64,000 bases of DNA, taken from the NCBI GenBank assembly GCA_902790625.1, contig CADASP010000008.1, forward strand, positions 1 to 64,000, given 5' to 3'. Positions 1-8,847 of this stretch are shown one piece after another. The translations under genes were made by a program, and so were the position numbers. The notes under the pieces are model-generated. The model was given only the letters and a program-made list of their open reading frames with translations. It searched no databases and was not told where the DNA came from. How positions within the stretch are numbered: position 1 is the stretch's first letter; every line of letters starts with the position of its first letter. Source of the stretch: an uncultured Prevotellaceae bacterium. Its GTDB lineage: Bacteria; Bacteroidota; Bacteroidia; Bacteroidales; Bacteroidaceae.

Positions 1-812
1 GCTTCGGCTGTGGTGTAATAGGAATCACTCGCCTTCAGGTCGGGGCGGAAGATGTCATCAAGATGTTTCTTTGAATAGTAGGTCCTGCCATATTCTCGCT
101 TGGTGGGAATATGGCGGCGGTAGGCTTGGGTACGCAGGGATTCCTTGGTGGTGGAATAGAGTGTTTCTGCCTCATCCGTTGTGAGCCACTCTGTCAATGC
201 TTCTATCTCAGCGGAAACTCCGAAGAGTGCATCCATGTGCTTTCGGCTATAGTAGTTCTTACCTGCAATCTTGCACATGGGTATGTTGTTTCTCTTGGCT
301 GAAACATAGAGCCACGACTTCTTAACCTTGTAGATAGCCATAACGTCCTCGCCAGAGATGTATTCAAGTGGTTCTGATGACCGCATATCAATTTCTGGTA
401 TGTGGTTCTTGTCTTTCCTCGACGAAAGGGAAGAAGAAGTTTTGCACGGTTTGTTTGATGAAGCACCGGGCAATACTCTATGATAAGGATTGCCAGCAAG
501 CATCTTCTCGATGTCTGCCTTGCGGATGAATGCCATCCGGCTGCTGATTCGTGATGCAGGAAGTTTACCCTTGTTTACCAACTTGTAAACGTACTGTCGG
601 GAGCATCCCATGAGGATGGCTGCCTTGGAGAATGTAAGATACTCCTGGCTGGCGATGTCTATAACTGGCTGGACTGCCTTCAAAAAGTCCTGTTGCTTCT
701 TCTTGCGCTGAGCCTTTGCCGCCTCGGCACAATGTTCCGAACAATACCTCTGCGAGCCACTGTTACAAGTGAACTCCTTACCGCAGAAGGCACATTTTCT
801 TGTCTTTCTCAT
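1..812 (-). CDS. Multi-HTH (excisionase/MerR-type) protein, partial at window edge
   Basis: The frame opens at ATG 812-810 and stays open to position 3, so about 270 residues are visible and the C-terminus lies outside the window. A small Cys-rich knuckle comes first (C7, C10, C16, C24, C28; CAFCGKEF and YCSEHC), followed by a basic stretch. Then come repeated HTH_17/excisionase-like units at roughly residues 51-98, 149-196 and 204-253, with a fourth beginning near 264. Each opens with a hydrophobic-T/S-x-x-E/K-A/D pattern and closes with a YYSRKHMDALF-like tail. Single units of this kind act in excisionases and phage or plasmid regulators, and proteins of this sort often accompany Bacteroidota integrative elements. 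I infer a DNA-binding role on the phased repeats upstream of its own start. No integrase is visible here. The exact family is not recognised with certainty. Confidence 0.75.
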   Translation of the reverse strand, partial: MRKTRKCAFCGKEFTCNSGSQRYCSEHCAEAAKAQRKKKQQDFLKAVQPVIDIASQEYLTFSKAAILMGCSRQYVYKLVNKGKLPASRISSRMAFIRKADIEKMLAGNPYHRVLPGASSNKPCKTSSSLSSRKDKNHIPEIDMRSSEPLEYISGEDVMAIYKVKKSWLYVSAKRNNIPMCKIAGKNYYSRKHMDALFGVSAEIEALTEWLTTDEAETLYSTTKESLRTQAYRRHIPTKREYGRTYYSKKHLDDIFRPDLKASDSYYTTAE

Positions 813-864
813 TTGATTCCTTTTTATGTGGTTTTACAATCAATTTCTTGCAAACCGCCACGGA

Positions 865-1012
865 GTGAACTTTCGTCAATCATTGACACTCATTGTCAAC
901 TCATTCCACGATGTTGCGTCCTTCAAATGAGGTCACTTCCTTGATCTTTTCCCTCTCGTTCATCAGTCAACAGTTGTACACTTTTGTCAACCTTTGTCAA
1001 CCCTGTCCACGA
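865..1012. repeat. Two 47-48 bp arrays of 10-bp-phased GTCAAC-like hexamers
   Basis: Hexamers related to GTCAAC start at 865, 875, 885 and 895, followed by CCACGA at 906. A second set starts at 966, 976, 986 and 996, followed by CCACGA at 1007. Every element of the second array is offset by exactly 101 bp from the first. The 10-bp phasing puts all sites on one face of the helix. The arrays lie in the presumed 5' leader of the multi-HTH gene, between its promoter and its ATG. Confidence 0.75.
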
Positions 1013-1060
1013 GATGGCAAAATAAAAGCCCTCAAAATTCTCCGCGGTAGAAATGCGTTG

Positions 1061-1091
1061 CAAAGATAAGCGGATTTTTGAGAAAAAGCAA
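1061..1091 (-). promoter_or_regulatory. Bacteroidota-type promoter for the multi-HTH gene
   Basis: On the minus strand the -7 element TATCTTTG (1068-1061) is preceded by TTGC at 1091-1088 with a 19-bp spacer. A start site near 1054 would give a leader of about 240 nt containing the phased arrays. Confidence 0.6.
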
Positions 1092-1177
1092 GTCCGAAGT
1101 GTTAAAATATAAATGTGGCTGATATACAATGGGTTATCTCTATGTGTTTTTCATTATTTGTGGTTGTTTAGAGGGCT

Positions 1178-2326
1178 CTAAATACATCCAAAGAAAGCAC
1201 AATTGCCGATGGCAGTCACACTATTGGGGATGGTGATTGAGGTAAGACCGCTACAGGCGGAGAAAGCAGACGCGGCGATGGTGGTCACGCTATTTGGGAT
1301 GGTGATTGAGGTAAGGTTTCTACAAGCTGAGAAAGCAGACACGCCGATAGTGGTCACGCTATTGGGGATAGTGAGTGAGGTAAGATTAGTGCAGCCAGAG
1401 AATGCAAAGTTGCAAATGCCACGTGTTCCTTCATTCAGTGCTAAATTATTTGTGGGCATATTCCCCTTGTATCCACACACCCATTTGTCCACATAAAAGA
1501 CTCCATTTGGAGAATTGTTATAAATACCAGTTTTGTCGAAAGCATGAGAGTCAATAGTGATCACACTATTGGGGATATTGACTGAGGTAAGGCTGCTACA
1601 GCCAGAGAAAGCAAAGGAGCCGATAGTGGTCACGCTGTTGGGGATAATGACTTCGAACAGGCTGGAGCATTCCTGGAAAGCAAAATTGCCGATGGTGGTT
1701 ACGCTGCTGCCAATAGTGACTGAAGTAAGGCTGCTACAGCCAGAGAAAGCAGACACGCCGATAGTGGTCACGCTGTTGGGGATATTGACTGAGGTAAGGC
1801 TGCTACAGCCAGAGAAAGCAGATTCGCCGATGTAGGTCACGCTGTTGGGGATAGTGAATGAGGTAAGGCCTGTACAATCCTGGAAAGCAGACCCTCCGAT
1901 TGTGGTCACACTCGAAGGGATGGTGATTGAGGTAAGACCTTGACAATCCCTGAAAGCATACGTGCCGATGGTGGTTACGCTATTGCCGATGGTGATTGAG
2001 GTAAGACCTGTACATCCAGAGAAAGCAGATTGGCCGATAGTGGTCACGCTATTGGGGATGGTGACTGAGGTAAGGCCAATGCAATTATGGAAAGCATTTT
2101 GGCCGATGGTGGTCACACGATAAACAACACCATTATAAGATACTTCTTCTGGAATCGTTACAGTACCTGAGTAGTTCCAACCATCCGTCACAGTTGCCGT
2201 TTGGCTATTTGAGTCGAAATAGTAAAAAATGCCGTTAATCACAGCATCACGCGCATCGGCCATCAAGGGGAGAAGCATTGCAAAGAGGAGTAAGGATAGT
2301 TTTTTCACATTCATATTTATTTTCAT
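1178..2326 (-). CDS. BspA-like leucine-rich repeat surface protein, apparently truncated
   Basis: 382 residues. An N-terminal signal peptide (hydrophobic LLLFAMLLPLMADA, cleavage near residue 25) is followed by a short beta segment and about a dozen 23-residue LRR_5/BspA repeats built on the pattern SLTSVTIPNSVTTIG..AFSGC. One longer irregular island sits near residues 255-300 (DKTGIYNNSPNGVFYVDKW), a form common between BspA repeats. Such proteins are surface adhesins in Prevotella and Tannerella. The gene stops inside a repeat (AFFGC-Ile-stop) with no C-terminal cap, dockerin or sorting domain, unlike its paralogue at 4172-6688, so it is probably truncated at its 3' end. ATG 2314 is an alternative start. 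Confidence 0.85.
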   Translation of the reverse strand: MKINMNVKKLSLLLFAMLLPLMADARDAVINGIFYYFDSNSQTATVTDGWNYSGTVTIPEEVSYNGVVYRVTTIGQNAFHNCIGLTSVTIPNSVTTIGQSAFSGCTGLTSITIGNSVTTIGTYAFRDCQGLTSITIPSSVTTIGGSAFQDCTGLTSFTIPNSVTYIGESAFSGCSSLTSVNIPNSVTTIGVSAFSGCSSLTSVTIGSSVTTIGNFAFQECSSLFEVIIPNSVTTIGSFAFSGCSSLTSVNIPNSVITIDSHAFDKTGIYNNSPNGVFYVDKWVCGYKGNMPTNNLALNEGTRGICNFAFSGCTNLTSLTIPNSVTTIGVSAFSACRNLTSITIPNSVTTIAASAFSACSGLTSITIPNSVTAIGNCAFFGCI

Positions 2327-3581: not shown

Positions 3582-3589
3582 AAAAGCCT

Positions 3590-3950
3590 CACCCCCAGCC
3601 CCTCTCCAAAGGGAGAGGGGAGTATATAGACCCGCCAATGGTATTCTCAGCAGCAAAACTATACACTCCCCTCCCTTTGGAGTTACTCTTTATACACATC
3701 TCATTGAGACACACCCGCAGTCCCCCCGCCCCTGCAAGGGGAGGGGTTGGGGGCGGGGTGAAGCCACGTCTGTTCACGACTCATACACACTTGCTCCTGA
3801 CTCCACCCCGCCCCCGACCCCTCCCCTTGCAGGGGCGTGGGGAGCAGCGGGGACACCTCGGTGGGGAAACGTCGGAGATGTCGCGCAGCATCATCAGCTT
3901 GCAGGTCTATATACTCCCCTCCCTCCAGGGAGGGGCAGGGGGAGGGTCTT
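3590..3950. repeat. Cluster of REP-like palindromes (CCCCTCCC ... GGGAGGGG family)
   Basis: Several GC-rich hairpins follow one another, for example 3592-3632, 3721-3760, 3806-3840 and 3905-3945, joined by short AT segments containing TATATAG or its complement CTATATA. Inverted pairs enclose a conserved GCAAAACTATA/TATAGTTTTGC piece. The same family recurs near 6724, 10483, 12789, 13018 and 42442. It fills the gap between the HU gene and the BspA promoter. Confidence 0.75.
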
Positions 3951-3998
3951 CCCCCCCCCCTTTTTTCTCCTTCCCGCAAAAATAATTCAGTCTTTTCG

Positions 3999-4028
3999 TT
4001 GATTGCATCGAAATTTTTCGTATCTTTG
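3999..4028 (+). promoter_or_regulatory. Promoter of the large BspA-like gene
   Basis: TTG at 3999-4001 and TATCTTTG at 4021-4028, spacer 19 bp, give a leader of roughly 140 nt before ATG 4172. Confidence 0.65.
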
Positions 4029-4171
4029 TAGCCAACTTCCCCGACACGCGAAAGCACGGACTCTCCACTCCGGGGCAAAACCATGCTTTCGCACCTCCAG
4101 CAAGCCAGCGGATGGGGTGGGGGCTTTGGCGCATCGATGAATACGTATAACATCATAAAACCGAAAACGAT

Positions 4172-6688: not shown

Positions 6689-6723
6689 CGAGCCTGGGGC
6701 GTTCGTGTCAGAGACTCTGAAGA

Positions 6724-6801
6724 CCCTCCCCCCAGCCCCTCCCTGGAGGGAGGGGAGCAGGTCTATATACTCCCCTCCCCTCCGCGGGAGGGGTCGGGGG
6801 A
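6724..6801. repeat. REP-like palindrome pair
   Basis: Two GC-rich hairpins (about 6724-6756 and 6768-6801) flank CTATATA, the same layout as at 3590-3950. It lies between the convergent ends of the BspA-like and TonB-receptor-like genes and may serve as a terminator for both. Confidence 0.65.
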
Positions 6802-6810
6802 GAGGCTCCC

Positions 6811-8847
6811 CTATTTTGAAAGGATGCCCGTCTCACTGTCACTATGGTTCATGGTGCGCTGAATGTCATGATACTTGCGGCCATGGTCGAGACGATAGGT
6901 GAGCTTGAGTGTGAGCATATTGCCGTAGTCACGATAGTGCTGGGTGATATGCTTATTCACATATTGGCTCATGACCTCGGTCTTGCGCGTCAGGGGATGC
7001 TGGCTGAAGGGGTGCTGGGCATAGAGAGAGACGCTGAAGGCTTTGCTCATGCGATACTGGCAGGTGAGATACCAGGCTGGGGCTTGGTGGCCACGATGCT
7101 CACCCTCCATGAAGTTCCACCCGTTGTCGGCATAGGCCCCCAGCGTCCAGCTGCCCAGATAGGCTTGCAATGAGCATCCACCATTGAACGAGGTGTAGGT
7201 GTGGGTGTAGCCCTCGCCATAGTTGAAGAAACGGTAGATGCCACCATAGACGGTGGCTGTCAACGTCTGGGGGATGATGTCCCACTGGTTGTAGCTGTCG
7301 AAATAGAAGAAGTTGCACTTGTTGTCGGCATTGGTTTGCGTCTGGAAGAAGTGACCCCCTGCCCGCACATATTTCTCCATGTTGCAATGGGCATTGAGTC
7401 GGTAATAGCCCTGCAGCTCTGACGTGAACCGTGGTGTGGAGTAAGCGATGCTGAGCTGGTGGGAGGTGACTCGGTTGGGATGGATGTCGGGGTTGCCCAG
7501 AATGGTCTCCATCGCATTCTGCTTGATGCTGACATCACTGACCAGAGCAATCTGCGACACATGCTGCGAGACCTCAAAGTCGTAGTTCACCTTCAGGTGG
7601 TCGGCAAGAGGATAGCCGATGGTGAGCTTGGGACGTAAGAGCCAGAAATGGTGCTCGGCTTCTCCCTGACGGTAGTGGCGGCTGCTGCCACCGAGGCCTC
7701 CCATATAGCTGAGCTTGCCAAGATGTCCCTTCAGCTGCGAGAACAGGTAGATGTCGGTGGAGTGCATGTCGTTGATGGCATTGGCATCCCCTTGATATAC
7801 ATTATGGTTATAGCGTTGTGAATACTGTGAACCGAAGGATAGGGTGGAGGATGGGAGGCGGAGGGTGTAGATGGCCTCGCTCCAGAGGCTGTAGGTATGT
7901 CCGTCGATGTCATAATGGTAGGCAGAGCCTTCGTTGTTTTCAGTTTCGCCATCCGTCTTGATATACATCCCCACCACATTGGCCGTCAACGACTGGTGGT
8001 GGCCAAAATCTTGATGGTAATAGAGGTCGAGCGAGGGGCTGCTGCTCCGCGATGATGAATGTTCATCGTAGGTGAGACCATTGATGGCCATCACGGCATC
8101 ACTCCTCTGGGGATGGATGCCCTGGCTGCCCGACAGTTTGGCTTGGAACACATAGTTGGAGTCGCTCAGGCTATAGGTGAGTTGGGCGTTATGGCTGAGG
8201 TCTTTGCTCTGCTGACTCAGGCTCTTACGGTGAAGTGAAAGGATGTCGCCTGATTCCAGTTCATAGGCTGCATGCTCGTCGTAGGCCAAGCCCTTGAAGC
8301 GATGGTAATCGAGTGCATAGCTCAGTGCCAGCTCACTGTGCCCGTGGTTCACCTTGCCATAGACCGATTCCTGGCCATTCACAGTGGTCAGCGTGTTGGT
8401 GAGTTGCGTGCCTACGACATAGCCCGACTTGGGTTTCTTCACTATGATATTTATCATGTATGCGATGCCCTCTCCATACCGCACACCAGGATTGTCGATG
8501 AACTCTATGTGGTGGATGCCCTGCATGTCGAGTGCCAGCAAGTCTTCACGCGAGGCAATGATGTCGTTGATGCGCACTTGCACCGCTCCCAGATGGGTCA
8601 GTGGGGTGATGCTGTTCATGGCTTCGTCGACACGGATGTGGGGTAGGGTGAGCTTTGCCAACAGCGAGTAGCCATTGGCCGAGTGCTCTATCTGCTGTTG
8701 GGTGGGATAGAGCCACATGCCTTCAACAGTCTTGACGGTGCGTGCACCTTCTACTGTCACCTCGCCGAGGGTGACGTTCTGCTCAGGGTCTTGGGCCGCA
8801 GCTGACAGTGTGCAAACTGCCAACAGCGAAAACAATAATCTCTTCAT
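6811..8847 (-). CDS. TonB-dependent-receptor-like outer-membrane beta-barrel protein
   Basis: 678 residues from ATG 8847, chosen because a promoter -7 box lies just upstream at 8866-8873, which excludes the longer frame. Signal peptide 1-18 (LLFSLLAVCTLSAAA). A plug-like domain follows at about 25-125 (LGEVTVEGARTVKTVEG, VQVRINDIIASREDLLALD, IEFIDNPGVRYG), then a long beta-barrel region rich in alternating aromatic strands to the C-terminus. It resembles the 'outer membrane beta-barrel family' receptors of Bacteroidota rather than SusC; no carboxypeptidase-like N-terminal domain and no SusD partner is present. The upstream gene encodes a membrane-tethered regulator, and an operator-like array sits in front of this gene. 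The substrate is unknown. Confidence 0.8.
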   Translation of the reverse strand: MKRLLFSLLAVCTLSAAAQDPEQNVTLGEVTVEGARTVKTVEGMWLYPTQQQIEHSANGYSLLAKLTLPHIRVDEAMNSITPLTHLGAVQVRINDIIASREDLLALDMQGIHHIEFIDNPGVRYGEGIAYMINIIVKKPKSGYVVGTQLTNTLTTVNGQESVYGKVNHGHSELALSYALDYHRFKGLAYDEHAAYELESGDILSLHRKSLSQQSKDLSHNAQLTYSLSDSNYVFQAKLSGSQGIHPQRSDAVMAINGLTYDEHSSSRSSSPSLDLYYHQDFGHHQSLTANVVGMYIKTDGETENNEGSAYHYDIDGHTYSLWSEAIYTLRLPSSTLSFGSQYSQRYNHNVYQGDANAINDMHSTDIYLFSQLKGHLGKLSYMGGLGGSSRHYRQGEAEHHFWLLRPKLTIGYPLADHLKVNYDFEVSQHVSQIALVSDVSIKQNAMETILGNPDIHPNRVTSHQLSIAYSTPRFTSELQGYYRLNAHCNMEKYVRAGGHFFQTQTNADNKCNFFYFDSYNQWDIIPQTLTATVYGGIYRFFNYGEGYTHTYTSFNGGCSLQAYLGSWTLGAYADNGWNFMEGEHRGHQAPAWYLTCQYRMSKAFSVSLYAQHPFSQHPLTRKTEVMSQYVNKHITQHYRDYGNMLTLKLTYRLDHGRKYHDIQRTMNHSDSETGILSK

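Follow-up and report, generated by a model that had tools for sequence, protein, structure and literature searches.

Genes and Features at the Locus

The stretch of DNA analysed here, hereafter the window, comprises 64,000 nucleotides, and its first base is also base 1 of contig CADASP010000008.1 (G000:C8) from an uncultured Prevotellaceae bacterium. Because the window starts at the contig end, the tnpA homologue and the element to which it belongs are incomplete in the assembly. The features at this end are the following:

3..812, minus strand: tnpA homologue, 5′ 270 codons, the gene being cut by the contig end
3..23, minus strand: beginning of HTH4 (cut), about residue 264 in homologues, from the alignment with complete homologues
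48..191, minus strand: HTH3, residues 208–255, from the unit model
222..365, minus strand: HTH2, residues 150–197, from the unit model
495..644, minus strand: HTH1, residues 57–106, putative reader of the arrays, from the unit model, covariation and structure comparison
729..794, minus strand: zinc ribbon/treble clef, N-terminal C2C2, residues 7–28, from the sequence
862..901, minus strand: proximal array, four 10-bp units, AGTTGACAAT GAGTGTCAAT GATTGACGAA AGTTCACTCC, from the sequence and shuffles
902..913, minus strand: CATCGTGGAATG, GTGGA-element flank of the proximal array
963..1002, minus strand: distal array, four 10-bp units, GGTTGACAAA GGTTGACAAA AGTGTACAAC TGTTGACTGA, from the sequence and shuffles
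1003..1014, minus strand: TCTCGTGGACAG, GTGGA-element flank of the distal array
1061..1068, minus strand: TATCTTTG, candidate Bacteroidales –7 box (TAnnTTTG) for tnpA, from family-wide enrichment
1096..1108, minus strand: ATTTTAACACTTC, candidate arm-type motif of the integrase, different from the arrays
1166..1186, minus strand: element left end, TGTATTTAGAGCCCTCTAAAC, a sharp boundary in about 76 loci
1183..1198, minus strand: integration core GCTTTC-N6-TGTA at AFxxC codons of the LRR_5 gene, its TGTA common to the element end
1178..2326, minus strand: 5′ part of an LRR_5/BspA-like gene into which the element is inserted (Pfam LRR_5, E 1.8e-97)

The window protein consists of a C2C2 zinc ribbon, three winged-HTH (wHTH) units and the beginning of HTH4, and its complete relatives from homologous loci, of about 324 aa, contain the zinc ribbon and four wHTH units. 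The three full HTH_17-like units and the partial fourth reported in the initial annotation were borne out by Pfam HTH_17, which matches three stretches of the protein (E 2.6e-21), by the unit model and by the homologue alignment. The zinc-ribbon cysteines at positions 7, 10, 24 and 28 are invariant in a 48-sequence alignment, and this domain gives a weak L24e-like profile match. In HTH1, Q73 and K77 lie in the recognition helix and R88 in the wing. An AlphaFold model of TnpA, of moderate confidence (pLDDT 74, pTM 0.41), contains four winged helices. It was verified by structure alignment that HTH1 best matches Pukovnik Xis (Z 8.5, rmsd 1.7 over 56 residues), with DNA-bound BldC at Z 8.4 (rmsd 1.4 over 51 residues), and its match to TIGR01764 'excise' (53.6 bits) assigns it to the Xis-type winged-helix fold; the excisionase-type nature attributed to the units can thus be specified as Xis/BldC-like wHTH. 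HTH4 aligned with Par, RacA and MerR proteins, with Z values lower than those of the HTH1 matches. At about 324 aa and with several units, TnpA differs from the wHTH excisionases, which are small and single-domain.

Two other assignments were rejected. The top Foldseek matches, UFL1 and SelB, reached TM ≤0.17 and reflect winged-helix strings only, and the MADS defence protein MAD1 was discarded since NF047737 scored 30.2 bits, short of its cut-off of 80, and the neighbours are integrase and mobilization genes. The PADLOC mad1 model also matches TnpA-family proteins of loci L031, L016 and L124 (up to 74 bits), all within mobile elements; these are HTH cross-matches, and MADS calls made from HTH_17 proteins alone may be false.

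A Tn4555-Family Element in an LRR_5 Gene

A total of 80 homologous loci were found in Prevotella and relatives. In the loci examined, the tnpA homologue is followed by a tyrosine integrase gene with Arm-DNA-bind_5, SAM_5 and catalytic domains, and in relatives this gene lies directly downstream, the window itself ending inside tnpA; the integrase and attachment sites that the initial annotation suggested looking for beside the HTH gene were located in the relatives. The gene order in these is tnpA, int, a tnpC-type gene, an HTH/Xis gene and ATPase/mobilization genes. L119 is annotated with the Tn4555-type order, and L031, L072 and L093 share it, the gene at the tnpC position of L031 having no Pfam match. 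The element encodes a small HTH_17 protein of 125–168 aa. The CfxA beta-lactamase is found on a related element in Leyella, and the protein of that element shares 88% identity with proteins bearing the annotation 'transposon Tn4555 protein TnpA'. Based on the homologous loci, the gene order and the TnpA-annotated relatives, the window protein was assigned as TnpA of the Tn4555 family and, judged by sequence, a Tn4555-family integrative mobilizable element has its left end here, within an LRR_5 gene. According to a review, Tn4555 without tnpA inserts essentially at random (PMC5704250). As to the suggestion that the protein is a regulator or recombination directionality factor (RDF), its wHTH is of Xis type, but the TnpA of Tn4555 is presented in the literature as a targeting factor and not as an RDF (PMC5704250).

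The neighbouring LRR_5 gene, missed in the initial annotation, is the integration target. When the upstream regions were aligned, the element end stood out sharply as TGTATTTAG or slight variations of it, and the distinct left flanks lie in frame in LRR_5 genes in 54 of 75 cases by a strict test; by table reading, about 66 of 75 are in LRR_5 genes, nearly all at A-F-x-x|C codons. In L107, a complete chromosome, the left junction reads GCATTT|CATAGT|TGTATTTAG and the right junction GCAAATAC|TACGGA|TGCATAAGC, with LRR_5 coding resuming in frame past the right end. The 6-bp sequences differ between the two junctions and, as read from the occupied site only, resemble Tn916-type coupling sequences. 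The core GCNTTY-N6-TGYA occurs 181 times in the window's genome and 57 of these occurrences are in an LRR-like context, so that the core alone may not explain the LRR_5 share of about 88%; survival bias, with insertions elsewhere being lost, is a possible source of this share.

In the same genome, contig C30 (L228, G000:C30:1-1500) begins with a right end that runs in frame into LRR_5 sequence, probably the other half of the gene interrupted in the window. At the start of contig C18 (L227, G000:C18:1-1200), a further left end lies in a different LRR_5 gene, and the contig breaks in this genome are probably due to repeated element copies. Right-end mapping from shared words alone was ambiguous. 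Regarding the arms, 19 of the 25 loci that have CK-type integrases contain a TTTAACAC-type motif, as against none of 14 with CT-type integrases, and the right arms contain GTTAAA repeats.

The target of Tn4555 contains 207-bp repeats, and it is possible that these are related to LRR_5 repeats (207 = 3 × 69); the literature search, which had the original Tn4555 papers outside its range, found nothing joining Tn4555 with leucine-rich repeats. A 10,057-bp circular record of Bacteroides fragilis (L118, CP103138.1), filed as a plasmid, is composed of genes of Tn4555 and resembles an excised circle. Its junction, GGTTGTTATAACC, is without the expected AAATAC-N6-TGTATT core, reflecting either a real deletion or assembly loss at an inverted repeat. 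Elsewhere in the window, at 3589–4134 and 6705–6902, short repeated GC-rich stretches between genes, reading PPPAPPWREG/PLPLQGRG on either strand, look like dispersed intergenic repeats.

Phased Arrays Upstream of tnpA

The two homologous four-unit arrays with 10-bp spacing described in the initial annotation were recovered from the sequence and recur in relatives, with a start-to-start offset between distal and proximal array of exactly 101 bp; the coordinates originally given were correct overall, except that the repeats start at 862 and not at 865. CGTGGA precedes both arrays on the minus strand (CCACGA on the plus strand). None of 2000 Markov shuffles attained the four-unit score of the distal array and 41 of 2000 attained that of the proximal array. 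The arrays recur in nearly all loci of the window's own family, and this conservation is a stronger argument for them than the shuffle statistics. A simple pattern detected both arrays in 35 loci; the offset was 101 bp in 21 of these and 79 bp, the next commonest value, in 7.

Both arrays lie downstream of the candidate –7 box and upstream of the tnpA start codon, about 170–325 bp from the element left end, in agreement with the earlier placement of the arrays in the leader of the HTH protein's own gene. Across the family, TAnnTTTG occurs 5′ of the arrays in 38 of 71 loci, against 8.7 expected.

The phasing was evaluated with a four-unit tandem score at periods 6–15 in 71 non-redundant Bacteroidales loci. 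Period 10 gave a mean z of 3.66, versus values of at most 0.97 for periods 6–9 and 11–15, and 61% of the loci exceeded z 3 at period 10, a clear array being absent from some relatives. The phasing is therefore general among related loci, as the proposal in the initial annotation required. In register, the units read xTKNNACRxx, the bases before AC being variable, and the window version is GTTGACAA. Direct repeats about one helix turn apart are what excisionases bind, and the repeats are the presumed binding sites here. Of the 43 loci whose proteins have at least three HTHs, 22 have GTGGA ahead of the array, where 1.1 would be expected.

The relatives carry 1, 2, 3, 4 or 7 HTH units, and array length remains about 4–5 units irrespective of this number, contrary to the expectation that the count of HTH units in homologues would equal that of upstream sites. 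A few arrays have 5–6 units, and some dnaK-adjacent relatives with two HTHs have one or two array units, or none. Judged by the upstream flank sequence, several relatives adjoin the 3′ ends of dnaK or mnmE.

Covariation of the Array Motif with HTH1

It was verified that array motif similarity is associated with HTH1 identity (partial r 0.60, p 0.001), whereas no association was found with the rest of TnpA (partial r –0.02) or with the integrase (0.04). When the zinc ribbon was added as a linkage control, the values were 0.61 for HTH1 and –0.02 for the zinc ribbon. Since the zinc ribbon sits between the array and HTH1 and yet lacks association, linkage alone does not explain the HTH1 signal. 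HTH1 and the array, as DNA neighbours, may nevertheless move together, a concern that this control lessens and does not remove. With one representative for each of the 23 HTH1 clusters, the association persisted (r 0.38, p 0.002). No association with the array motif was found for HTH2, and the last HTH gave a small residual one (0.10, p 0.038).

Natural swaps are consistent with this association. In the loci L123/L134, L012 and L135, the integrases are 99% identical and HTH2–4 more than 90% identical, whereas HTH1 is 29–52% identical, and the arrays read GTTGAC (L123/L134), GAGAC (L012) and GGTAC (L135). Thus, L134 and L135 have 99% the same integrase and share nearly all of HTH2–4, but differ in their arrays. 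At the residue level, HTH1 column 31 (R88, in the wing) pairs with base +2, with asparagine accompanying T in 5 of 5 clusters (family-wise p 0.007). Column 20 (K77, in the recognition helix) pairs with base –3, arginine with G and lysine or asparagine with T, at a family-wise p of about 0.05, and column 16 (Q73) fails the family-wise correction. These results indicate that HTH1 is the putative reader of the arrays, the motif tracking neither HTH2, the zinc ribbon nor the integrase.

Proposed Mechanism and Alternative Explanations

Taken as a whole, the reading that we regard as fairly probable is that TnpA molecules lie side by side on the arrays via HTH1, in an element of the Tn4555 type. Several TnpA molecules would bind each array, neighbours being on the same DNA face, with one TnpA per 10-bp unit, read by the Xis/BldC-type winged helix of HTH1. 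The initial annotation had instead envisaged a single polypeptide reading the whole array, one TnpA spanning it with each HTH on one 10-bp unit in order. Although the window family does combine four HTHs with four array units, array length is independent of HTH count, and a single motif runs throughout the array, following HTH1 while HTH2–4 remain unchanged and HTH2 is unassociated. One HTH1 per unit is therefore likelier, and a spanning TnpA is improbable.

The covariation also bears on which other protein might occupy the arrays. Arm-type sites of the integrase would be expected near the element ends, and the integrase has an arm-DNA-binding domain; however, the motif does not follow the integrase, 99% identical integrases accompany different arrays, and a separate motif, TTTAACAC, tracks integrase type. 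Additionally, the right arms inspected showed no arrays of this kind and have the GTTAAA-type repeat instead, and we hold this explanation to be very improbable. Xis proteins bind repeats of this kind as well, so that the small HTH_17 protein encoded downstream could be the ligand, but the array motif tracks HTH1 of TnpA, and in L134 and L135 the gene directly after int encodes a 73% identical RhuM-like protein and not an HTH_17 one, which leaves this protein a slim chance. It is more conceivable, though still unlikely, that the arrays are purely a transcriptional operator for TnpA autorepression, with no role in recombination. Their location between the –7-like box and the tnpA start codon, and the enrichment of TAnnTTTG upstream of them, agree with an operator; on the other hand, they are also near the element end, and RDF-type sites commonly do both (PMC7498355).

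Returning to side-by-side binding through HTH1, a TnpA filament would limit tnpA-int expression and would bend the left arm for recombination, and the position of the arrays, between the tnpA promoter and the start codon and close to the left end, suggests that it should do both. From this position, autoregulation by TnpA is likely. HTH2–4 would be left free for other contacts, most plausibly with target DNA or intasome partners, and this would explain the targeting function reported for TnpA. A possible contact of the additional units with target DNA is the part of the mechanism in which we have the least confidence. It is conceivable, albeit doubtful, that TnpA acts more generally as a modular adaptor, with HTH1 anchoring the filament on the arm array by a decodable code and 0–6 further HTHs reading or contacting the chromosomal target, so that a changed HTH string would redirect the element (dnaK 3′ end, mnmE 3′ end or LRR_5 repeats).

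Significance and Comparison with Known Systems

The element family and RDF-type arrays are of known kinds. As far as the literature searched shows, the original Tn4555 papers excepted, what is new is the presence of arrays in the TnpA family, the way in which they covary with HTH1, and the LRR_5 preference; the arrays and the HTH1 link were not found described in that search, and an earlier account of TnpA binding sites is possible. Relatives of Tn4555 disseminate resistance and other cargo among Bacteroidales, and TnpA steers them. The natural HTH1 swaps represent a ready-made, testable recognition code for a Xis/BldC-type domain and point to domains worth assaying. Furthermore, insertion by a widespread element family at conserved AFxxC codons of BspA-like surface-protein genes would affect strain variation of these repeat-rich genes.

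Among the closest known systems is Tn4555 itself. The window protein is 59% identical over 268 aa to the G010 copy, which has exactly the same array as Tn4555 in CP103138, and Tn4555 shares the location of TnpA upstream of int, the element-end type and the presence of 10-bp arrays. Unlike the window family, which is mostly in LRR_5 genes, the Tn4555-type loci L116, L117, L119 and L120 have left flanks that are not LRR_5.

As a rule, each RDF monomer occupies one of a series of direct repeats spaced by one helix turn (PMC7498355), and RdfS covers 10 bp per monomer (PMC11963761). Apl of phage 186, P2 Cox, lambda and Pukovnik Xis and RdfS resemble TnpA in their wHTH fold and in having repeats about one turn apart near att and a promoter, whereas TnpA differs from them in its zinc ribbon, its 0–6 further HTH units and a motif that varies widely among relatives. 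BldC of Streptomyces, on which HTH1 superposes, makes head-to-tail filaments with one DNA turn per molecule but, unlike TnpA, is a single-domain developmental regulator without an integrase link. The proposed arrangement of one TnpA per 10-bp unit would thus resemble the filaments of Xis, Cox and BldC.
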